Part shown: one piece after another, positions 18,015 to 28,934 of the stretch
Layout of the letters: every line of letters starts with the position of its first letter
Numbering within the stretch: position 1 is the stretch's first letter
Assembly (NCBI RefSeq): GCF_018598185.1
Contig: NZ_JAHESC010000003.1
Span: forward strand, 1 to 64,000
Direction of reading: 5' to 3'
Length of the DNA stretch: 64,000 nucleotides
From: Dawidia soli
GTDB lineage: Bacteria > Bacteroidota > Bacteroidia > Cytophagales > Cyclobacteriaceae
Program-made: the position numbers and the translations under genes
The notes under the pieces: generated by a model
Databases searched by the model: none
The model's input: the letters and a program-made list of their open reading frames with translations, nothing else
What the model was told of the DNA's origin: nothing

Positions 18015-21000
18015 ATGAAAATCAAGAGCCAAGTATCGGTCTGGGAGGAAAATGTCGTCATTCCCACATATGGAGTAGGTAAACCAGAAAAAAATCCAAT
18101 ATTTCTTGAAAACCGTGTCTACCAGGGCAGCAGCGGCGTGGTATACCCGCACCCGGTCATCGAAAAGATCCTGGACGAGAAGCACGATCAGACTTACCGG
18201 GCGCTCTACCTGGAGAATCACTATATAAAGATCATGATCCTGCCGGAGCTTGGCGGCCGGGTGCAAATGGCGTATGATAAGATCCGGCAGCGGCATTTTG
18301 TATACTATAACCAGGTGATCAAACCGGCGCTGGTGGGGCTAACGGGGCCGTGGATCTCGGGCGGTATCGAGTTTAACTGGCCACAGCACCATCGCCCCAG
18401 CACGTTCGACCCGATCGATTATACGATCGAAGAGCACGTCGACGGCAGCAAGACCGTATGGGTGAACGAAGTGGAGCGGATGTTCCGCACAAAGGGTATG
18501 GCGGGGTTCCGTCTGTATCCCGACAAGGCTTATCTCGAGATCAACGCGCGGCTGTACAACCGTACGCCCTTTCCGCAGACGTTCCTCTGGTGGGCCAACC
18601 CGGCAGTGAAAGTGAACGACGATTACCAATCGGTGTTCCCACCGGATGTGCATGCGGTATTCGATCACGGCAAGCGCGACGTGTCGGAATTTCCGATCGC
18701 GAAGGGCACGTATTATAAAGTAGACTACTCGGCAGGCGTGGACATCTCGCGCTATAAAAATATACCGGTGCCGACATCATATATGGCCATCACCTCCAAA
18801 TACGACTTTATGGGGGGATACGAGCACGACTCTCGTGGCGGGTTGCTGCACGTGGCCAACCACCACGTGTCGCCGGGTAAAAAACAATGGACGTGGGGCA
18901 ACGGCGAGTTCGGTTATGCGTGGGACCGCAACCTGACGGACGAAGACGGTCCCTATATCGAGCTCATGACGGGTGTCTTTACGGACAACCAACCCGACTT
19001 CTCGTGGATCCAACCTTTTGAGGAACGTACGTTCACACAGTACTTCATGCCCTACGGCGAGCTGGGTGTCGTGAAGAATGCCACGCGCGACGCGATGGTG
19101 AGCCTGGAAGTACAAGGCCAATCGGTTGCGATCAAATTATACGCTACGGCGCTATACGAAGGCGCTTCGCTGGAAGTGTTTTACAACGGTCGCGGGGTGC
19201 ACCGGGAGGCGATCACGGTGTCGCCCGAGCACATTTATACCGGCGCGGTTAAGCTGGACAGTGTGCCGCAGGCAGAGCACGTGCGCCTGGTGTTGCGCAG
19301 CGCTACCGGCAAGGTGCTGGTGGAATATCAACCCGACAAGCCGGAGGTGAAACCTGTGCCCGATGCGGCCCGCCCGGCGTTGGACCCGGCGGCGATCACC
19401 AGCATCGAGCAGCTTTTTCTGACGGGTCTGCACATCGAGCAATACCGTCATGCCACGTATCGCGCTACCGACTATTACCAGGAGGCGTTACGGCGCGAGC
19501 CCGGCGACGTGCGCAACAACAACGCGCTCGGCCTTTGGTATCTCAAGCGGGGTCAATTCGCAAAAGCGGAGCCTTACCTGCGCGCGGCGATCGCCACGCT
19601 GACGCAACGCAACCCCAACCCGTACGACGGCGAGCCGTACTTCAACCTCGGCTTGTGCCTCTCCTACCTGGGCCGGTACGACGAAGCATTTGATGTATTC
19701 TATAAAGCCTGTTGGAATGCCGCCTGGCAGGACAGCGCGTATCTGCAGCTGGCCCGCCTAGCTACGCGCAAGGGTTCTTATGAGGAAGCGCTGGACCTGG
19801 CAGAGAAATCATTGGCCCGCAACTACCACAGCCACACCGCGCGCCACCTGAAGGCAGTGCTGCTGCGCAAGCTTGGCCGTGCGGCGGAGGCGCAGGCGTG
19901 GATCGCTGCTTCGCTGGCGATCGACAATTTCAACTATGGCTGTCTGTTCGAAGCGGCGCTGCTCGAAGCGGATGCGGCCGCCGCGGCTGACAAGATCCGT
20001 CAGCTGCAACACCTCATTCGCGGGTATGTTCACAACTACATCGAGTATACATTTGACTACGCGCACGCGGGCTTGTATACCGAGGCCTCGGACTTCCTGA
20101 AGCTTGCACGGAAAGAAGGCCAGCCCTCCTACCCCATGGTGCTATACTACCTGGGTTACTTTGCCGGGCTCATGCAAGATGCGGCCGTTGCGGGTCAGTG
20201 GCATGCGCAAGCGGCCGCGGCCGCCCCCGACTATTGCTTCCCCAACCGCGTGGAAGATGTGCCCGTGCTACAGGCGGCCTTGGTCGTAAACCCGCGTGAC
20301 GCCAAGGCTCATTATTACCTCGGAAACTATTGGTATGCCAACCGGCAATATGCCGATGCGATCGCTTGCTGGGAGAAGTCGGTTCAATACGACGCTTCGT
20401 TCCCGACGGCGCATCGCAACCTGGCGCTGGCGTATTACAATAAACAACAAGACGCTCAAAAGGCGTTGAAATCGTTGCAGCAGGCGTTTGCGCTTAACCC
20501 GACCGATGCACGGGTGCTGATGGAGCTGGATCAACTGTACAAGCAGCTCAACAAGCCACACGCCGAGCGGCTGGCGCTGTTGGAAAAACACCTGGACCTG
20601 ACGGTGGATCGCGACGATCTATACCTGGAACGTGTGACATTGTATAATTTGCTGGGGCAGTTCCAACAAGCCCGGCAGTTGCTGGCGGCGCGGACCTTCC
20701 ACCCGTGGGAAGGCGGCGAAGGCAAGGTGGTCGGCCAATACCTGCTGTGCCACCTGGAGCTTGCCAAGGAGGCTATTTTGCAAGGTTCGTATAGTGAAGC
20801 GCTCGAACTGTTGGATGCCGCGGAAGTGTATCCGCACAACCTGGGCGAGGGCAAGCTGTATGGCGCCCAGGAAAATGATATCTTCTATTTGAAGGGCTGC
20901 TGTTATGAGGCGCTGGGTCAGCCGGCGGAAGCCCAGGCGCATTTCCGGAAGGCCACGCTGGGGCTAAGCGAACCGGCGCAGGCGATCTACTATAACGACC

Positions 21001-21356
21001 AGCAGCCCGATAAGATCTTCTACCAGGGCCTTGGTTGGAAAAAGCTCGGTACGCCGGCACAGGCAACCGCCATCTTCCAGCGTCTGATCGACTTCGGGGC
21101 GGCGCACCGCGAGGACAAGATCCGCATCGATTACTTTGCCGTGTCGCTGCCCGACCTGTTGGTATTCGATCAGGACCTCGATCTGCGCAACCGCATCCAC
21201 TGCCACTACCTGATGGGGCTGGGCCACCTGGGTTTGGGACAGGCCGCGCAGGCAGAAGAACACTTCCAGGCGGTGCTCGCCGCGAACGCCAATCACCTGG
21301 GTGCGTTCTTCCATCGCAAGATGAATCGTATGATACTTCAGCCGTCTGTGGTATAG
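18015..21356 (+). CDS. DUF5107-type mutarotase-fold protein with long TPR region
   Basis: 1113 aa with no signal peptide. Residues about 1-345 match the DUF5107 type: YRALYLENHYIKIMILPELGGRVQ, then GIEFNWPQHHRPSTFDP and NPAVKVNDDYQSVFPP, a beta-supersandwich related to galactose mutarotases. Residues about 450-1100 are tandem TPR repeats (NNNALGLWYLKRGQFAKAEPYL, AHYYLGNYWYANRQYADAIACWE, AHRNLALAYYNKQQDAQKALKSL). The family often sits next to carbohydrate loci, and this one is divergent from the PUL regulator. A sugar-binding or enzymatic role on an intracellular product is plausible; no catalytic residue can be assigned by eye. A clear terminator follows, so it is a single-gene unit. Confidence 0.85.
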   Translation: MKIKSQVSVWEENVVIPTYGVGKPEKNPIFLENRVYQGSSGVVYPHPVIEKILDEKHDQTYRALYLENHYIKIMILPELGGRVQMAYDKIRQRHFVYYNQVIKPALVGLTGPWISGGIEFNWPQHHRPSTFDPIDYTIEEHVDGSKTVWVNEVERMFRTKGMAGFRLYPDKAYLEINARLYNRTPFPQTFLWWANPAVKVNDDYQSVFPPDVHAVFDHGKRDVSEFPIAKGTYYKVDYSAGVDISRYKNIPVPTSYMAITSKYDFMGGYEHDSRGGLLHVANHHVSPGKKQWTWGNGEFGYAWDRNLTDEDGPYIELMTGVFTDNQPDFSWIQPFEERTFTQYFMPYGELGVVKNATRDAMVSLEVQGQSVAIKLYATALYEGASLEVFYNGRGVHREAITVSPEHIYTGAVKLDSVPQAEHVRLVLRSATGKVLVEYQPDKPEVKPVPDAARPALDPAAITSIEQLFLTGLHIEQYRHATYRATDYYQEALRREPGDVRNNNALGLWYLKRGQFAKAEPYLRAAIATLTQRNPNPYDGEPYFNLGLCLSYLGRYDEAFDVFYKACWNAAWQDSAYLQLARLATRKGSYEEALDLAEKSLARNYHSHTARHLKAVLLRKLGRAAEAQAWIAASLAIDNFNYGCLFEAALLEADAAAAADKIRQLQHLIRGYVHNYIEYTFDYAHAGLYTEASDFLKLARKEGQPSYPMVLYYLGYFAGLMQDAAVAGQWHAQAAAAAPDYCFPNRVEDVPVLQAALVVNPRDAKAHYYLGNYWYANRQYADAIACWEKSVQYDASFPTAHRNLALAYYNKQQDAQKALKSLQQAFALNPTDARVLMELDQLYKQLNKPHAERLALLEKHLDLTVDRDDLYLERVTLYNLLGQFQQARQLLAARTFHPWEGGEGKVVGQYLLCHLELAKEAILQGSYSEALELLDAAEVYPHNLGEGKLYGAQENDIFYLKGCCYEALGQPAEAQAHFRKATLGLSEPAQAIYYNDQQPDKIFYQGLGWKKLGTPAQATAIFQRLIDFGAAHREDKIRIDYFAVSLPDLLVFDQDLDLRNRIHCHYLMGLGHLGLGQAAQAEEHFQAVLAANANHLGAFFHRKMNRMILQPSVV

Positions 21357-21399
21357 ATAAAATGTGTTGATAGTGTGTAACACATTGGTTTGAGAACGG

Positions 21400-21430
21400 A
21401 AGGCCGGCGTTTGCCGGCCTTTTTGTTTTT
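21400..21430 (+). terminator. Rho-independent terminator after the DUF5107-TPR gene
   Basis: AAGGCCGGC (21400-21408) pairs with GCCGGCCTT (21413-21421) across a 4-base loop, followed by a T-rich run. It sits 44 bases after the stop codon. Confidence 0.9.
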
Positions 21431-21438
21431 GGGGTGTC

Positions 21439-21537
21439 ATTGCCTTGTATTTTAGCATGGAAAGGCCCCAGATTGCCTTGTATTTTGGCACCGGCGAGGC
21501 TCATATTGCCTTGTATTTTGGCATGGAATGACCCTAG
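21439..21537. repeat. Three tandem copies of a 33-bp unit
   Basis: ATTGCCTTGTATTTTGGCA (first copy: A in place of the first G of GGCA) begins at exactly 21439, 21472 and 21505, a strict 33-base period. The first and third copies extend to GCATGGAA. The remainder of each unit differs. Because 33 is a multiple of three, one plus-strand frame gives an 11-residue periodic peptide starting LPCILAW, and a minus-strand frame gives AKIQGN repeats; neither is clearly a gene. The unit lies between the terminators of two convergent genes. Confidence 0.8.
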
Positions 21538-21543
21538 TCATAT

Positions 21544-21585
21544 AAATAAAAGGAGACCAGTTTTACTAGCCTCCTTATTTTATTT
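21544..21585 (-). terminator. Hairpin at the end of the zeta-toxin remnant
   Basis: AAATAAAAGGAG pairs with CTCCTTATTTTATTT with one small bulge and a 15-base loop. T-rich sequence lies on both sides, so it could stop transcription from either direction. It overlaps the stop codon (21580-21582) of the minus-strand gene. Confidence 0.6.
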
Positions 21586-22442
21586 GAATACTTCAATGTC
21601 ACGTAGAAATTTTTGAGAATCTCCTCCTCTGGCATCAATCATAGTCCGGACGTCTTCCATTTTGCTTTTGAAGTCCGCTTGCTCATCATTCGAAAAAGGC
21701 CTATTTCTTATGAAGGCTAACGTTGTAACTAGTTCTTGAAAATTACACGGATGCTCGGTTTCATAGACCACGTTTAACTTATCGTTTCCATCCCTCGAAT
21801 AAAGTACCAGTTTACTGACCAGCAGGCCACAAGCTTTCCCTAAAGCTAACAAGTTCGCAGGTAAAGCATGATAATTGCGATCGTGAACTTCCATTGATAC
21901 CATACGTTCCGGTGCTCCTATCCTGCTTCCATTCTCAAATCGATAGTGAACGCCCAGGCGGCTTACGTTAATATTAATACCGATTATGTGGATTTCGATT
22001 ATATAACCACGATTGTATAACGTTTGAAATAACTCAATGAAGTGCTCGACCGTACCCCCAACGTGGAATCAACCATTATACTCCGTCTTTCCTCAATGGC
22101 ATCATTCCTCAGCCTGATACTCCAATCCGTTGCATCGGGATTTACTAGATGACCTGCAAATTGATTTGTCCGTTGATCTTCCAACAATGTTGAATATGAA
22201 GGATGAATCCACCTAAGTTCGTCTGTATTAATTAGAACTTCTGCCCCCGTCTGAAGACCGACTCGAAGCTTTGTTTTTCCAGACCCTGGTTGGGCTCCCA
22301 GGAAATATGCCACAGGAGGAATAGATGAATCCGAAACATCCAGATATGTTCTTTGGATAAATTCCTGGTAGTAATACTGATGATCTTCTTCAGACAACAA
22401 ATAAGGTCGCTGCCGAATTGTAGCTTGATCTCTGGCACTCAT
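21580..22442 (-). pseudogene. Zeta-type toxin kinase, frameshifted
   Basis: The N-terminal part (from ATG at 22442) contains the Walker A motif GAQPGSGKT, then NTDELRWIHPSY and MVDSTLG, as in zeta toxins that phosphorylate UDP-N-acetylglucosamine. At the run of five G (plus strand 22055-22059) the frame slips: it stops at 21999, while the other frame continues GTVEHFIELFQTLYNRGY, then RIGAPERMVSMEVHDRNYHALPANL, to a stop at 21580, which is the expected C-terminal kinase half. One missing base in the G-run explains it. The region is visibly AT-richer than its surroundings, suggesting transfer. It is either an inactivated toxin or a homopolymer sequence error. Confidence 0.8.
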
Positions 22443-22449
22443 GGGAGTA

Positions 22450-22731
22450 TCAAGCAGCTTTTTCTTCGGCTAATATCTGCTTTAACTCGTCTTCATACTT
22501 TCGAATTTCCAATACCTTTTCGGGATAACTCAAAGTATAAAGATTAGTCTTCGCCTTTCCTATTTGATTAAACCGACTCTGATATTGATTGGCCTGGATA
22601 TGCAGGTGATTTTTCTTGGCCTTTACCGTAAGACGGACGTATCCTCCTGCTAACTGGCTCAACAGCGATACAATCTGTTCATCGATCAGAAATTTCTCAA
22701 AGCCTAAACTATCATCGCTAAACTTGTTCAT
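22450..22731 (-). CDS. Putative antitoxin of the zeta-type toxin
   Basis: 93 aa, acidic N-terminus (NKFSDDSLGFEKFLIDEQIVSLLSQL), a beta-rich middle (GGYVRLTVKAKKNHLHIQ) and a helical C-terminus (LEIRKYEDELKQILAEEKAA). It ends 7 bases before the toxin start codon in the same direction, the usual order for antitoxin then toxin. It is intact, unlike the toxin. The assignment rests on position, size and composition; no named antitoxin family is recognised. An epsilon-like partner that blocks the ATP or substrate site is the model. Confidence 0.6.
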   Translation of the reverse strand: MNKFSDDSLGFEKFLIDEQIVSLLSQLAGGYVRLTVKAKKNHLHIQANQYQSRFNQIGKAKTNLYTLSYPEKVLEIRKYEDELKQILAEEKAA

Positions 22732-22961
22732 CCTATAAAGATACGAAGCTTTTTACGATTGACTCGGGTCTTTTCCATCTGAAATATTCCGATCTCAGAG
22801 AAGCAACAAACCATTAATAATCAGATACTTATATAATCATAAGAAAAAGTTTCACGGCGTTTAAAATCATTGTTTCTGTCCTGTTGCACCAAACCGGGTA
22901 CGATTTTGAATAGCCTGCAGTTAGCAATAAATTGTACATCGACAAAGTCAACAGATAACCC

Positions 22962-23768
22962 ATGGACAAAAAGAAACTGCAAGATCAGGTTGCGATCGTT
23001 ACGGGGGCCAGCTCGGGGATCGGGGCGGGCATCGCCAGGGCGCTGGCGCGGGAAGGCGCGCGGGTGGTCGTGAACTATTCCAGCAGCCCCGACAAGGCGG
23101 CCGAAGTGTTGAAAGAAATACACGACGGCGGCGGCGAGGGGTTTACGATGAAGGCCAACGTCAGCCGGGAGGAGGATGTGCAGGCCATGTTCGCTGAGAC
23201 GATCAAGCGCTACGGCACAGTTGACATCCTGATCAACAATGCCGGGCTTCAGAAAGATGCCCGGTTCCATGAGATGACGCTGGAGGAATGGAACCAGGTG
23301 ATCGGTATCAACCTGACGGGGCAGTTCCTGTGTGCGCGCGAGGCCGTGAAGGAATTTATGCGCCGTGGCCTGGTGCCAGAGCGCTCCAAATCCGTGGGCA
23401 AGATCATTTGTATCAGCTCCGTGCACGAGGTGATCCCGTGGGCGGGGCATGCCAACTACGCGGCGTCCAAGGGGGGCGTAATGATGCTGATGAAAACGAT
23501 CGCGCAGGAGTATGCGCCGCAGAAGATCCGCATCAACAGCATCGGTCCGGGGGCTATCCGCACACCCATTAACTACGCGGCGTGGCAGACGCCGCAGGCG
23601 TATAACCAACTGCTCAAGCTCATTCCCGCGAAACGCATCGGCGAAACCGAAGATGTCAACGGCGCTGCGGTGTGGCTGGCGTCCGACGATTCGGAATATG
23701 TCAACGGCATCACGCTGTTTGTCGACGGGGGTATGTTGCTATACCCGGGCTTTGAGGACAACGGGTGA
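22962..23768 (+). CDS. SDR-family oxidoreductase, glucose 1-dehydrogenase-like
   Basis: 268 aa, the classic SDR length. NAD(P)-binding motif TGASSGIG near residues 14-21, NNAG near residue 92, catalytic Ser153 (ISSVHE), Tyr166 and Lys170 (NYAASKGG), and the C-terminal GITLFVDGGM. Sequence style is that of glucose 1-dehydrogenase-type SDRs that oxidise beta-D-glucose to gluconolactone, but SDR substrates cannot be read from motifs. The gene opens a plus-strand series with a GH63-like enzyme 34 bases downstream, then an ASRT homologue and a GH15 enzyme. Glucose released by those enzymes would be a natural substrate; this is inference. Confidence 0.85.
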   Translation: MDKKKLQDQVAIVTGASSGIGAGIARALAREGARVVVNYSSSPDKAAEVLKEIHDGGGEGFTMKANVSREEDVQAMFAETIKRYGTVDILINNAGLQKDARFHEMTLEEWNQVIGINLTGQFLCAREAVKEFMRRGLVPERSKSVGKIICISSVHEVIPWAGHANYAASKGGVMMLMKTIAQEYAPQKIRINSIGPGAIRTPINYAAWQTPQAYNQLLKLIPAKRIGETEDVNGAAVWLASDDSEYVNGITLFVDGGMLLYPGFEDNG

Positions 23769-23802
23769 TACTTCCTTTTTGTCTTTTGGTTATATTTAGC
23801 GT

Positions 23803-26418
23803 ATGAACGCTGAAAAGATCCGTCTGCAGGAAGACGTCGCGAAGAAAAAATACTGGCGCAAGTGGGGCCCTTATCTAACGGAACGGCAATGGGCCACGGT
23901 ACGGGAGGACTACAGCGAGAACGGCAATGCCTGGGAATATCTCACACACGACATGGCCCGCAGCAAGGCCTACCGTTGGGGGGAGGAAGGTATCGGTGGC
24001 ATTAGCGACGACAAACAATACCTGTGTTTTGCCCTCGGTTTCTGGAACGGCAAGGATCCTATTCTCAAAGAGCGCATGTTCGGGCTGACGGGCTACGAAG
24101 GCAACCACGGCGAAGACTGCAAGGAGCAATATTATTACCTGGACAGCACGCCGACGCATTCGTATATGAAGATGCTGTACAAGTATCCGCAGGCGGCGTT
24201 CCCGTACGCGGAACTGGTGGAAGAAAACCGCCGCCGCACGAAGGCCGACCCGGAGTACGAGCTTATCGACACCGGGGTATTCGACAACAACCGCTACTTC
24301 GATATCTTTCTGGAGTACGCCAAGGCCGACGATCACGACATGCTCATCCGCGTGACCGTACACAACCTGGGCAATGAGGCGGCTACGCTCGATGTGCTGC
24401 CCCACGTGTGGTTCCGCAATATCTGGTCGTGGAAAAGCGGCACGCAACAGCCGGAGCTTTTTCACGTAGCCGACGGCGTCGTGCAACTGAACCACGAACG
24501 ACTCGGTAAATATTATTTCTATGCCGAACAACCCGACGAGATGCTCTTTTGCGAGAATGAGACCAACACACAGCGGTTGTATGGCTATGCGTCGCCCGGC
24601 ACGTTCAAAGACGGCATCCACGAGTATGTGGTCAACAAAAAAAACAACACGCTCAACGCCAGCCGCCGGGGCACCAAGGGCGCGGCGCGTTACGCTCTGA
24701 CCGTTGCGCCCGGTGAGAAACGGGTCCTCCGCCTGCGGCTTGCCAATACCTTTCTGATCTCGCCGTTCAAAGACTTCGAAGATGTATTCACCCAACGGCT
24801 GCAAGAAGCCGACGCGTTTTACGAGGAGCTGCAGGAGAAGATCCAGGACGAAGACGATCGCAACATTCAGCGGCAAGCCTTTGCCGGCATGCTGTGGAGC
24901 AAACAATATTACTACTACGACGTAGGCAAGTGGATCCGCGGCGACGACGGCCAGCCTGCGCCGGCTAGCCGCAAGCATGGCCGCAACCGCGAGTGGATGC
25001 ACCTGCGCAATTCCGATATCATCTCGATGCCCGATAAGTGGGAGTACCCATGGTATGCTGCGTGGGATCTCGCCTTTCATACCATCCCCCTGGCGGTCGT
25101 CGACGGCGACTTCGCCAAGCACCAGCTGTTGCTCTTTACCAAGGAGTGGTACATGCACCCCAACGGGCAGCTGCCGGCCTATGAGTGGGCGCTGGGCGAC
25201 GTCAATCCGCCGGTACATGCCTGGGCAACGTACCGGGTATATAAGATCGATGAAAAACGGAACGGCAAGAGCGATCGTGTGTTTTTGGAAGAGGTCTTTC
25301 ACAAGTTGCTGCTCAACTTTACCTGGTGGGTGAATAAAAAGGACAACGAAGGAAATAATATCTTCCAGGGCGGCTTTTTAGGGATGGACAACATCGGTGT
25401 ATTCGACCGGAACACCAAGCTGCCCGGCGGCGAATATCTCGAGCAGTCCGACGGCACCAGCTGGATGGCCATGTATACCTTGAATATGCTGCGGATCTCG
25501 CTGGAGCTTTCCAAGGGAAACCCGGTATACCAAAGCCTCTCGACGAAGTTCTTTGAGCACTTCCTCTACATTGCCGGGGCGATGGCCAACATCGGCGGCG
25601 AAGGCATCAACCTCTGGGACGACGAAGACGAGTTCTTTTACGACGTGCTCAACACTTCGGACAATCAATACAGGCGCCTCAAGGTGCGCTCGATGGTCGG
25701 GCTCATCCCGCTCTTTGCGGTGGAGATCCTGGACGAGGAGATCTTTGAATCCAACCCGCAGTTCCGCGAGCGGCTGGACTGGTTCCTGCAGCATCGCGCG
25801 GACCTGGCCGGTCTTATTTCGCGCTGGGTGGAGCGGGGGCGCAAGGAACGCCACTTGTTGTCGTTGCTGCGCGGCCATCGTATGAAACGGATTCTCAAGC
25901 GCATGCTGGACGAGACGGAGTTCCTCTCTCCGTATGGCATCCGGGCGCTGTCAAAAGTATATGATGCCAAACCCTATATCTTCCGCACCAACGACACGGA
26001 TCTGAACGTAAAATATATACCGGGCGAAAGTGATTCGAACATGTTTGGCGGCAACTCCAACTGGCGGGGCCCGATCTGGTTTCCTGTCAACTATTTGCTG
26101 ATCGAATCGCTGCAACGTTTCTATCAATATTATGGCGACGACTTCCGGCTGGAGCATCCTACCGGCTCGGGGCGGATGCGCACGCTCCAAGAGATCGCCG
26201 ACGACCTGAGCGAACGACTTGTGCGCATTTTCCGCAAGGACGCGTCGGGTAAGCGTCCGGTGTATGGCCACCATCCCAGGCTGCAGTCCGACCCTAATTT
26301 CAGCGACTACATTTATTTCTATGAGTACTTCCATGGCGACAACGGCCGTGGGATCGGCGCTACCCACCAGACGGGCTGGACGGGGCTTGTTGCCAAGCTG
26401 ATCCAGCCAAAGGCGTAG
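23803..26418 (+). CDS. GH63-like (MGH1-type) glucosidase
   Basis: 871 aa, no signal peptide, so cytoplasmic. The N-terminal part has the MGH1/GH63-type pattern (RLQEDVAKKKYWRKWGPYLTER, ARSKAYRWGEEGIGGISD). The catalytic (alpha/alpha)6 region contains PWYAAWDLAFHTIPLA, with the Asp expected to serve as general acid, PAYEWALGDVNPPVHAWA, GGEYLEQSDGTSWMA, GNSNWRGPIWFPVNYLLIES and a final HGDNGRGIGATHQTGWTGL. Related proteins act on alpha-glucosides, mannosylglycerate or glucosylglycerate; the substrate here is unknown. It sits in a row with SDR, ASRT and GH15 genes, a combination that suggests turnover of an internal glucoside or compatible solute. Confidence 0.85.
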   Translation: MNAEKIRLQEDVAKKKYWRKWGPYLTERQWATVREDYSENGNAWEYLTHDMARSKAYRWGEEGIGGISDDKQYLCFALGFWNGKDPILKERMFGLTGYEGNHGEDCKEQYYYLDSTPTHSYMKMLYKYPQAAFPYAELVEENRRRTKADPEYELIDTGVFDNNRYFDIFLEYAKADDHDMLIRVTVHNLGNEAATLDVLPHVWFRNIWSWKSGTQQPELFHVADGVVQLNHERLGKYYFYAEQPDEMLFCENETNTQRLYGYASPGTFKDGIHEYVVNKKNNTLNASRRGTKGAARYALTVAPGEKRVLRLRLANTFLISPFKDFEDVFTQRLQEADAFYEELQEKIQDEDDRNIQRQAFAGMLWSKQYYYYDVGKWIRGDDGQPAPASRKHGRNREWMHLRNSDIISMPDKWEYPWYAAWDLAFHTIPLAVVDGDFAKHQLLLFTKEWYMHPNGQLPAYEWALGDVNPPVHAWATYRVYKIDEKRNGKSDRVFLEEVFHKLLLNFTWWVNKKDNEGNNIFQGGFLGMDNIGVFDRNTKLPGGEYLEQSDGTSWMAMYTLNMLRISLELSKGNPVYQSLSTKFFEHFLYIAGAMANIGGEGINLWDDEDEFFYDVLNTSDNQYRRLKVRSMVGLIPLFAVEILDEEIFESNPQFRERLDWFLQHRADLAGLISRWVERGRKERHLLSLLRGHRMKRILKRMLDETEFLSPYGIRALSKVYDAKPYIFRTNDTDLNVKYIPGESDSNMFGGNSNWRGPIWFPVNYLLIESLQRFYQYYGDDFRLEHPTGSGRMRTLQEIADDLSERLVRIFRKDASGKRPVYGHHPRLQSDPNFSDYIYFYEYFHGDNGRGIGATHQTGWTGLVAKLIQPKA

Positions 26419-26465
26419 CGGTACGCGGGCGGTGTGGCTGGCACTCTATTTTATCGGATGCCGGC

Positions 26466-26840
26466 ATGAGAAAGAATATTGGCAACACCTTGTGGGCGAT
26501 ACCCGAGGGCTATATACCGTCGGGCAGCACGGGGCCGGCGCCGGCGATGACCAGTCACGAAACGGCATGTATCCTGAATGCGGGCGATGAGGACGCCCTG
26601 GTACAGTTTACGATCTTCTTCAGCGACCGCGATCCGGTCGGCCCATACCGCGTCACGGTGCCGGCGCGACGTACCAAACATGTTCGGTTCAACGACCTGA
26701 AAGACCCGGCGCCCATTCCGTTGGATACGGACTATGCCTGTATCATCGAATCCAACGTGCCTGTTGTCGTGCAACACACGCGCCTGGACAGCCGTCAGGC
26801 CGAGAATGCTTTGCTGAGCACGATGGCCTACCCGGTGTAA
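26466..26840 (+). CDS. ASRT-family protein (sensory rhodopsin transducer homologue)
   Basis: 124 aa, about the size of the Anabaena sensory rhodopsin transducer. It starts MRKNIGNTLWAIPEGYIP, then HETACILNAGDEDALVQFTIFF, GPYRVTVPARRTKHVRFND and DYACIIESNVPVVVQHTRLDSRQ, following the all-beta single-domain pattern of the family. The founding member binds a microbial rhodopsin, but comparative work has proposed that the wider family binds small molecules, probably sugars. No rhodopsin gene is present here; the gene lies 47 bases after a GH63-like gene and upstream of a GH15 gene, in the same direction. A sugar-sensing or glycosidase-modulating role is inferred. Confidence 0.88.
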   Translation: MRKNIGNTLWAIPEGYIPSGSTGPAPAMTSHETACILNAGDEDALVQFTIFFSDRDPVGPYRVTVPARRTKHVRFNDLKDPAPIPLDTDYACIIESNVPVVVQHTRLDSRQAENALLSTMAYPV

Positions 26841-26892
26841 CCCCTGGTATGGTTTTTACACATCCGTTTATACAACTCCAATCTGCGCGTAT

Positions 26893-27036
26893 ATGGCTAA
26901 AAAGATCGCTCCGCAAAAGGAAGAGCCTAAAAAGCAGGCTCCGAAAAAAGTGACCGATATCTCGGGGCATCCGGCGAAGAGCCCGGATAATAAGCCTCAA
27001 TTATACGAGTCTAATTATAAGAAGACGCGGCGGTAG
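26893..27036 (+). CDS. Small Lys/Pro-rich basic protein (47 aa)
   Basis: The frame runs from ATG at 26893 to TAG at 27034-27036. It begins MAKKIAPQKEEPKKQAPKK, continues VTDISGHPAKSPDN and ends LYESNYKKTRR. It is highly charged, predicted disordered, with no signal peptide. It lies 52 bases after the ASRT gene and 65 bases before the GH15 start, in the same direction, so it is probably translated from the same mRNA. A nucleic-acid-binding or protein-tethering role is possible, but no family is recognised. Confidence 0.6.
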   Translation: MAKKIAPQKEEPKKQAPKKVTDISGHPAKSPDNKPQLYESNYKKTRR

Positions 27037-27101
27037 GTCGCGTGCCGCGAAAAGGCTATCTGAAGACCGCCCCCCATACGTGGCAATACAATTTATACGT
27101 C

Positions 27102-28934
27102 ATGGAAGACTTTCATTCTGATCCTTACATCCCCATCGAGCATTACGGCGTGATCGGTAACTTAAAGACCGTTGCGCTGGTATCGCTTACGGGGTCGATC
27201 GACTTCATGTCCTTCCCGACGTTTGATTCGCCAACCGTCTTTGCGCGTCTGCTCGATTCCCAACGGGGTGGATCGTTCTCAATCACGCCCGTGATGCAGG
27301 ATTATCATAGCAAACAGTTATACCTGCCGGGCACGGCGGTGCTGCTCACCCGCTTCTTTTCCGACGAAGGCATTGCCGAATTGACGGACTTCATGCCCAT
27401 TTTACAGCACAAGGGTAAAAATCTATGCGCCATTGTGCGGCAGGTGACGGCCGTGCGGGGTGACATTACCTTTCGCCTGGAGTGCACGCCGGCCTTTCAT
27501 TACGGGCAGGCTACTTCCCAACATAGGATCGCGGACCATGGCATTTTCTTCCAGGCGGAGCACGACGGTGGCGTGGTCTTACGGCTGATCGCCGATATTC
27601 CCCTGACGCTGCGCGACGGTCATGGCTATACGGAATTTACAGTGCGGGCATCCGAAACTGTCAATATCGTTTTAGAATCTGTACCGGCGGATGAAGCCGA
27701 TACGCTCCTGCCCATCGATTATTATACGAACGTGCTATACGGCGAAACCATTGACTTCTGGCGGAAGTGGATCACCCAGTCTACGTACCGTGGGCGGTGG
27801 ACGGAGATCGTGCACCGGTCGGCCATTACGTTAAAGCTGCTGACCTCGTGCGAGCACGGCTCGACGGTGGCCGCCGCCACGTTTGGGTTACCCGAAACAC
27901 CCGGCGGCGTGCGCAACTGGGACTACCGTTACACGTGGATCCGCGATGCGGCCTTTACCATGTACGCTTTCCTGGAGCTGGGGTTTACCGAAGAGGCGAC
28001 GGCTTTTCTAGGCTGGATCCACGCCCGCACGGAGGAGGACAAACTGCACCTGATGTATACCATCGACGGGCGACACGAGCTTACCGAACGCGAACTGCCG
28101 CACCTGGAGGGTTACAAAGGCTCACGGCCCGTACGCATCGGCAATGCCGCACAGGAGCAATTTCAACTGGATATCTATGGGGAGCTGATCGACACGATCT
28201 ATATCTACAACAACCAGCATCATGCCATCACGTATGAATTCTGGCTGTGTATCGTCAAGCAGGTAGACTGCGTCATCGCCGACTGGCACAAGCCCGATCA
28301 CAGCATTTGGGAGGTGCGCAACGGCAAGCGAGAGTTCCTGCATAGCCGGCTGATGTGCTGGGTGGCGATGGACCGCGCGATCAAGATCGCCGAGCATCGT
28401 TCGTTCCCCTACCCGCGCGACGTATGGTATGCTATCCGCGATGAGATCTACCACGATGTGTACGACAATTTCTGGAACCCCCAAGTCGGTGCCTGGGTGC
28501 AGTATAAAGGTGCCGACCGTGTCGACGCCAGCGTGTTGCTGATGACCCTCACGCACTTTGTCTCTCCCGACGAGCCCCGGTGGCGGTCGACGCTGAAGGT
28601 CGTGGAGAAGACGCTCGGCATGGATGTGTTGTTATACCGGTATCGCGACGATCCGGCGGTCGATGGGTTGCCGGGCGAAGAAGGCACGTTTACGTTGTGC
28701 TCGTTCTGGTATGTCGAGGCGCTGGCGAAAAGCGGCGAGGTGATCCACGCACTGGACTGTTTTGAAAAGATGCTGGGGTATGCCAACCATCTCGGGCTGT
28801 TCAGCGAGCAGATCAGCAAGAACGCCGCACACCTGGGCAATTTCCCACAGGCCTTTACCCACCTGGCGCTGATCAGCGCCGCGTTGGAGCTCGACAAACA
28901 ACTGGATCGCCTGGGCTTTCAACGGCAGCACTAA
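27102..28934 (+). CDS. GH15-family glucosidase (glucoamylase/trehalase-like)
   Basis: 610 aa from the ATG at 27102; an upstream GTG frame (27042) adds a non-conserved tail and is not preferred. Family blocks: YIPIEHYGVIGNLKTVALVS and GSIDFMSFPTFDSPTVFARLLD at the N-terminus, then EHGSTVAAATFGLPETPGGVR, NWDYRYTWIRDAAFTMYAFLEL, YKGSRPVRIGNAAQEQ and PGEEGTFTLCSFWYVEAL, the Glu-containing segment near the general base. No signal peptide, so cytoplasmic. Bacterial relatives hydrolyse trehalose, maltose or alpha-glucans to glucose. With the SDR and GH63-like genes upstream it fits breakdown of an internal alpha-glucoside. Confidence 0.9.
   Translation: MEDFHSDPYIPIEHYGVIGNLKTVALVSLTGSIDFMSFPTFDSPTVFARLLDSQRGGSFSITPVMQDYHSKQLYLPGTAVLLTRFFSDEGIAELTDFMPILQHKGKNLCAIVRQVTAVRGDITFRLECTPAFHYGQATSQHRIADHGIFFQAEHDGGVVLRLIADIPLTLRDGHGYTEFTVRASETVNIVLESVPADEADTLLPIDYYTNVLYGETIDFWRKWITQSTYRGRWTEIVHRSAITLKLLTSCEHGSTVAAATFGLPETPGGVRNWDYRYTWIRDAAFTMYAFLELGFTEEATAFLGWIHARTEEDKLHLMYTIDGRHELTERELPHLEGYKGSRPVRIGNAAQEQFQLDIYGELIDTIYIYNNQHHAITYEFWLCIVKQVDCVIADWHKPDHSIWEVRNGKREFLHSRLMCWVAMDRAIKIAEHRSFPYPRDVWYAIRDEIYHDVYDNFWNPQVGAWVQYKGADRVDASVLLMTLTHFVSPDEPRWRSTLKVVEKTLGMDVLLYRYRDDPAVDGLPGEEGTFTLCSFWYVEALAKSGEVIHALDCFEKMLGYANHLGLFSEQISKNAAHLGNFPQAFTHLALISAALELDKQLDRLGFQRQH

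Follow-up and report, generated by a model that had tools for sequence, protein, structure and literature searches.

The window analyzed here comprises the first 64,000 nucleotides (64 kb) of contig NZ_JAHESC010000003.1 of Dawidia soli. It contains a cluster of five open reading frames, all on the plus strand, in which a homologue of ASRT, the Anabaena sensory rhodopsin transducer, is surrounded by genes for glycosidases and an oxidoreductase:

22962-23768, plus strand: SDR oxidoreductase, glucose 1-dehydrogenase-like (PF13561, 225 bits, 1.2e-66)
23803-26418, plus strand: GH63-type glycosidase of 871 aa (PF22422, 82 bits, and PF03200, 35 bits, both above the cut-off)
26466-26840, plus strand: ASRT homologue of 124 aa (PF07100)
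26893-27036, plus strand: K47, a Lys-rich protein of 47 aa (coding, as judged from the nonsynonymous and synonymous divergence, dN and dS, from Parachryseolinea silvisoli)
27102-28934, plus strand: GH15 enzyme with a trehalase-like N-terminal domain (PF00723 and PF19291, TREH_N; start moved from 27042)

The gene order is SDR-GH63-ASRT-K47-GH15, with intergenic gaps of 34, 47, 52 and 65 bp. The last gap measures 65 bp and not 5 bp because the listed GH15 reading frame is homologous to P. silvisoli only from its residue 21 onwards, where an ATG lies at 27102; this alignment indicates that GH15 probably starts there rather than at 27042. Codon comparison with P. silvisoli revealed purifying selection on all five genes. 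A consensus scan detected no plus-strand terminator-like site in the four gaps, its counts being not clearly above those of shuffled sequences; with a sigma-70-type consensus it gave 6 candidate promoter sites, where shuffling yielded 6.3. An initial annotation, made from the sequence alone, had described the 124-aa ASRT homologue at these coordinates, its placement between GH63-like and GH15 genes with an SDR upstream and a 47-aa gene downstream, and a plus-strand layout with short gaps. The PF07100 match, the Pfam families and the coding tests confirmed this description, except for the K47-GH15 gap, which had been taken from the listed reading frame. It had also noted the lack of signal peptides, in agreement with a crude Kyte-Doolittle check (not a signal-peptide predictor) in which none of the five N-termini matched the hydrophobicity of two neighbouring proteins of exported type.

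The ASRT protein scored 191.2 bits against PF07100 (cut-off 25, E = 6e-57), and phmmer aligned it much better with Anabaena ASRT (2ii7; 2.6e-60, 205 bits) than with Thermotoga TM1070 (2.7e-18, 69 bits); therefore, it is closely related to the rhodopsin transducer proper. Foldseek matched the predicted monomer (mean pLDDT, the model's per-residue confidence score, 82.8) with 2ii7 at 6.1e-15 and with 1nc7 at 4.9e-10, pointing to a stand-alone domain with a predicted beta-sandwich fold. By analogy with the published Anabaena and Thermotoga proteins, it is probably tetrameric. Its pocket signature, SHETACILN, is a complete SHEshChhN as defined in PMC2739507, from which the location of the pocket with H31 and C35 was also taken. 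Both residues are nearly invariant among close ASRT rows of our alignment (84 and 83 of 85, a few rows duplicating one genome), while a Trp at the start of strand 1 (W10) and an Asn at the end of strand 2 (N38) occur in all 97 aligned rows. R110, Q111 and N114 are kept in 85, 85 and 82 of the 85 close rows, rhodopsin present or not. With an offset of one residue, they would correspond to R109, Q110 and N113, the DNA contacts reported for the Anabaena protein (PMC8660804). The loop holding them (residues 109-115) was modelled at pLDDT <50. The coding sequence is constrained between the window species and P. silvisoli (dN 0.014, dS 1.13).

The SDR exceeded the cut-off of NF005559, a glucose 1-dehydrogenase subfamily (242.8 bits for 215), and stayed below that of NF006493 (312.7 bits for 420). 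The GH63-type enzyme passed PF03200 (35.2 bits for a cut-off of 22.4) and showed D422 and E841 in all 19 aligned sequences, which we take to be the catalytic acid pair from the motifs of GH63. It lay under the NCBIfam equivalog cut-offs of glucosylglycerate hydrolase (21.2 for 550) and of YgjK-type alpha-glucosidase (21.6 for 625). Its nearest solved folds were GH63 glucosidase I and YgjK, with query-normalised template-modelling scores of 0.36-0.54 (Foldseek, model mean pLDDT 69), and phmmer returned 11 matches at E <=0.1, namely two glucosidase I chains (0.0046 and 0.048) and nine chitinase-like chains. As these matches were too weak, naming the substrate from sequence or fold was abandoned. 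The GH15 enzyme matched PF00723 at 234.2 bits (cut-off 22, 3.5e-69), and its N-terminal PF19291 domain at 59.4 bits (cut-off 23.1, 3.8e-16). It carries an EEGTF motif and fell short of the NCBIfam equivalogs for two archaeal trehalases, TreH1 (374.5 for a cut-off of 820) and TreH2 (315.5 for 1000); at E <=0.001 its solved relatives were isomaltose-glucohydrolase (GH15-related) chains alone, the best at 3.7e-4. K47 evolves as a coding gene (dN 0.041, dS 1.48, third codon positions accounting for 18 of its 23 changes) and had no Pfam or NCBIfam match at E <=0.01. Among 241 genomes of the order, a sample without the other congeners, it was found only in its own genome, and P. silvisoli has it at 91%. 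With the congener loci included, K47 was observed in no more than two species, and we rejected it as a conserved partner.

The neighbourhoods of ASRT were then compared across 81 loci, consisting of the best 80 of 253 relatives plus the second copy of the window's own genome, after removal of alignments shorter than 80 columns and of SDR matches with less than 38% identity. Because only the best 80 were kept, the sample leans to close relatives; P. silvisoli (L004) and another five congeners are part of it, and loci of near relatives do not count as independent. The commonest tested neighbours were TreS-like GH13 and TPP enzymes, and rhodopsin was rare: within 4 kb of ASRT we counted GH13 in 27 loci, LLM oxidoreductases in 19, TPP enzymes in 18, ALO-type oxidases in 8, DUF2721 in 5, rhodopsin in 4, GH63 in 3, GH15 in 3 and SDR in 2. 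The same partner types as in the window were met in distant lineages. ASRT, GH15 and an SDR (40% identity) are consecutive in a Rubrobacter metagenome-assembled genome (MAG; L044), ASRT, an SDR (31% identity) and GH15 are grouped in a Gemmatimonadota MAG (L066), and GH63 lies 1.5 kb (L042) and 2.3 kb (L038) from ASRT in two cyanobacterial loci. Setting P. silvisoli aside, the fetched stretch contained a GH15 homologue in 7 of 79 loci. For the first 50 of these 79, GH15 and GH63 were counted genome-wide and compared with a Poisson model: GH15 was near ASRT in 3 (0.22 expected, P = 0.0014) and GH63 in 2 (0.11 expected, P = 0.0056). Thus, by this simple test and with small counts, both families adjoin ASRT above chance. 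Also, a gene which we presume from the start of its sequence, not from a family search, to be DNA-ligase-D-like was observed near ASRT in ten loci (L026, L028, L029, L043, L048, L054, L057, L062, L067, L073), eight of them Nitrospira; in all except L029 a TPP enzyme adjoins ASRT.

Within the genus, seven genomes were available, the window species included. All 7 have a close ASRT and a GH63 with adjoining SDR, and in one MAG (G245, L197:7185-9726) the GH63 gene is broken into two frames that overlap, next to an SDR that looks intact, by decay or sequencing error. Only the window species and P. silvisoli have ASRT-K47-GH15 after SDR-GH63. Since the linkage with GH63 and GH15 is kept in 2 of 7 congeners, the five-gene order, whose conservation the initial annotation had suggested as a check, looks young. 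In the other five, ASRT goes with an LLM oxidoreductase and GH13, at about 4-5 kb in G243; in G241 they are separated by a second ASRT, accompanied by ALO and DUF2721. Family names were tested on the Ohtaekwangia koreensis pair alone among these five: its LLM neighbour passes TIGR03885 and the F420-G6P family model, and its GH13 is TreS-like (551.9 bits, under the equivalog cut-off of 678). The window's genome has more distant homologues of GH13 (44%) and LLM (51%) on other contigs. Synteny between the window and P. silvisoli extends over 3221-28959, with nucleotide identities of about 79-84%; it is interrupted by one long break (about 1.4 kb, 21525-22894) and, briefly, between K47 and GH15. 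Across the order, ASRT was found in 4 of 241 genomes and GH63 in 127, and among 19 further GH63 loci of the order an SDR adjoins in 5 and ASRT occurs in the fetched stretch of none.

A quick tree of the ASRT alignment (97 rows) placed the window protein apart from its congeners. However, the likelihood rose above that of the quick tree when the genus rows were constrained to one group (approximately unbiased test, p = 0.75 and 0.82), and a careful tree of 84 rows, from which 12 paralogue rows and one duplicate had been dropped, joined the window species and P. silvisoli with four congeners (support 88/79); the placement of the fifth, Pseudochryseolinea flava, was not settled. We accordingly dropped the idea that ASRT had been acquired horizontally and separately from the congeners; the careful tree lends moderate support to vertical descent within the genus. 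On the careful tree, where 58 of the 84 rows could be labelled, the main contexts need at least 13 changes. Because this tree groups the genus rows, the change of neighbours would have followed vertical descent: ASRT probably swapped one set of alpha-glucoside enzyme plus oxidoreductase for another, in a direction that the comparison of loci only suggests.

The window's genome contains a second ASRT copy (contig C80, L003:7139-9264) flanked by genes for an ALO-type FAD oxidase and a DUF2721 protein, with an altered pocket signature, SHDKIAIVN. Two further families of the order have the same trio (L137, L138), and both partners occur near ASRT in Nitrosomonas (L051, L058). From tree and context we picked 12 rows as an ALO-side paralogue group, two of them being one genome twice; there H31 is kept in 7 of 12, C35 in 1, R110 in 2, Q111 in 6 and N114 in 2. 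As pocket and loop relax in the same group, this pattern of substitution suggests that the pocket residues and the DNA-contact-aligned loop may serve one function.

Concerning rhodopsin, no match was obtained in the window at E <=10, and none was seen beside either ASRT copy. The whole genome had no PF01036 match either, a weak test because the PF01036 control found nothing in any of 14 genomes. The absence of rhodopsin claimed initially thus holds for the window and the surroundings of both copies, and less firmly for the genome. Beyond Anabaena, a rhodopsin lies 21-105 bp from ASRT in four cyanobacterial loci (L014, L020, L038, L052). In a 2011 paper, the xenorhodopsin genomes other than that of Anabaena PCC 7120 are described as lacking ASRT and the pairing as specific to Anabaena (PMC3198991). 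We also observed rhodopsin remnants just upstream of an intact ASRT in Cyanomargarita (L042:8780-8941) and Trichormus (L068:8821-8983), consisting only of the initial 22 codons plus some 30 close to the gene end (tblastn E 3e-6 to 0.007). In these two loci, the remaining codons seem to reflect loss of the rhodopsin by internal deletion, ASRT being retained.

The reading that we prefer, tentatively and at somewhat less than an even chance, is that the window ASRT is a stand-alone cytoplasmic metabolite-sensing accessory of intracellular alpha-glucoside turnover. GH63 and GH15 would attack an internal alpha-glucoside, and the glucose thus released would be oxidised by the SDR. Either this sugar or what its oxidation yields might be bound in the H31/C35 pocket of ASRT, and ASRT would modulate the SDR, GH63 or GH15, or their genes, the five genes being presumably co-transcribed. 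We favour this because the SHETACILN signature is intact and H31 and C35 are near-invariant in close rows, because GH13, LLM, TPP and ALO genes are among the neighbours of ASRT and GH15 and GH63 exceed chance, and because ASRT, GH15 and SDR are grouped in the Rubrobacter and Gemmatimonadota loci. The pairing of ASRT with either LLM plus GH13 or SDR plus GH63 and GH15 within the genus argues in the same direction, as do the two GH97 genes, the GH36 gene, the SusC/SusD-type genes and the MFS sugar-transporter gene further upstream. Several observations weigh against it. The five-gene order is confined to two congeners, and the SDR-GH63 pair stands without ASRT in the other five and in 5 of the 19 further loci. 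Some 18 of the 81 ASRT loci have no tested partner family within 9 kb, although some contigs are short. GH63 and GH15 are common, being present in 29 and 37 of the 50 tested genomes, and the chance test covered 50 of 79 loci and two families with a Poisson model that ignores kinship. The sugar ligand is a published prediction (PMC2739507), and the conserved DNA-contact-aligned residues also fit DNA binding. The initial annotation had proposed a sugar cluster, to be given up if the linkage with GH63 and GH15 was not conserved or if a rhodopsin adjoined another ASRT copy. The other sugar-enzyme neighbourhoods and the surroundings of both copies agree with this proposal; the linkage, seen in two congeners, does not.

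Three other explanations were weighed. An accidental neighbourhood, in which a relocated ASRT landed behind the SDR-GH63 pair with no functional tie, appears rather unlikely. It would account for the restricted arrangement, for the rarity of ASRT in the order and for the diversity of its neighbours, but the order has been kept in both species at dS 0.7-1.5 despite an adjacent length difference, the gaps are short, and like partner types recur in other phyla above chance in our simple test. DNA binding or bending, through which ASRT would control the cluster or a large number of genes, has to be taken seriously because the reported contact residues are kept in close rows regardless of rhodopsin, and Anabaena ASRT is reported to loop DNA of about 100 bp and to activate a reporter (PMC8660804). 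Nevertheless, we consider it unlikely: the same study reports a dissociation constant (KD) near 10 uM and little dependence on sequence, random sequence being looped more than a fragment of the pec promoter, and the conserved loop may serve another contact. That ASRT is a small enzyme, a sugar mutarotase or one acting on aldonolactones, which feeds the right sugar form to the adjoining oxidoreductase, is very improbable. Such a role would suit the frequent company of a glycoside-type enzyme and an oxidoreductase, as well as the near-invariant His and Cys of a pocket predicted in PMC2739507. However, the literature found reports no catalytic activity for any ASRT, and the ALO-side paralogues have lost C35 in 11 of 12 and H31 in 5 of 12.

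A broader version of the accessory reading can be formulated, which we regard as improbable: ASRT would be a portable accessory of modules combining an alpha-glucoside enzyme and a sugar oxidoreductase, swapped in one genus between TreS-like GH13 plus LLM and GH63/GH15 plus SDR, acting, perhaps as a catalyst, on the aldose or aldonolactone that one enzyme hands to the other, and later recruited by the cyanobacterial rhodopsin. In any case, two alpha-glucoside/oxidoreductase sets beside relatives of a rhodopsin transducer constitute a natural experiment within one genus, which narrows the candidate ligands to glucose, its lactone and alpha-glucosides. Also, the locus adds to the case for rhodopsin coupling being a side use of ASRT.

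The region upstream of the cluster comprises the following features:

18015-21356, plus strand: DUF5107-TPR protein (PF17128, 1.6e-57), syntenic in P. silvisoli
21525-22894, no strand: about 1.4 kb without alignment in P. silvisoli, the long synteny break
21999-22442, minus strand: zeta-toxin-like open reading frame (PF06414, 2.9e-17)

A terminator-like stem (21398-21423) lies behind the DUF5107-TPR gene, which is probably a unit separate from the five genes. The unaligned stretch, between this gene and the SDR, also holds two small minus-strand reading frames without Pfam match. A unit of about 33 bp is repeated in tandem, with 2.8 copies, 3' of the DUF5107 gene (21439-21528), and similar repeated words are present in P. 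silvisoli.

The idea of a sugar sensor is not new. De Souza et al. (2009; PMC2739507) already proposed it for stand-alone ASRT-like proteins, with amylases among their neighbours; the sugar ligand predicted there has not been demonstrated in the literature that we found. A full-text search by family names gave, among the matches listed, no title or abstract opening on ASRT beside GH63 or GH15. The neighbours of ASRAH proteins named in the text of PMC2739507 are isomerase-aldolase-kinase, ABC transporter, amylase, pyruvate decarboxylase/oxidase, dehydratase/racemase and FAD-oxidoreductase genes, a list which, unlike the window, does not include GH63 or GH15. ASRAH proteins of sugar operons, such as Thermotoga TM1070 (1NC7), share with the window protein a stand-alone cytoplasmic nature, surrounding carbohydrate genes and the SHEshChhN signature (PMC2739507), but the window ASRT is far nearer to the Anabaena protein (205 against 69 bits). 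Altered expression of asr/asrt has been reported for Fur mutants (PMC12282138). The ASRT of Anabaena (Nostoc) sp. PCC 7120 (2II7) agrees with the window protein in family, fold, pocket signature and DNA-contact-aligned residues, whereas in the window no rhodopsin gene was found and the neighbours are GH63, GH15 and SDR. Finally, the loci with TreS-like GH13 and TIGR03885 LLM, the arrangement of five of the seven congeners, have the same ASRT subfamily and likewise combine an enzyme of alpha-glucoside type with an oxidoreductase, but the enzyme families differ.

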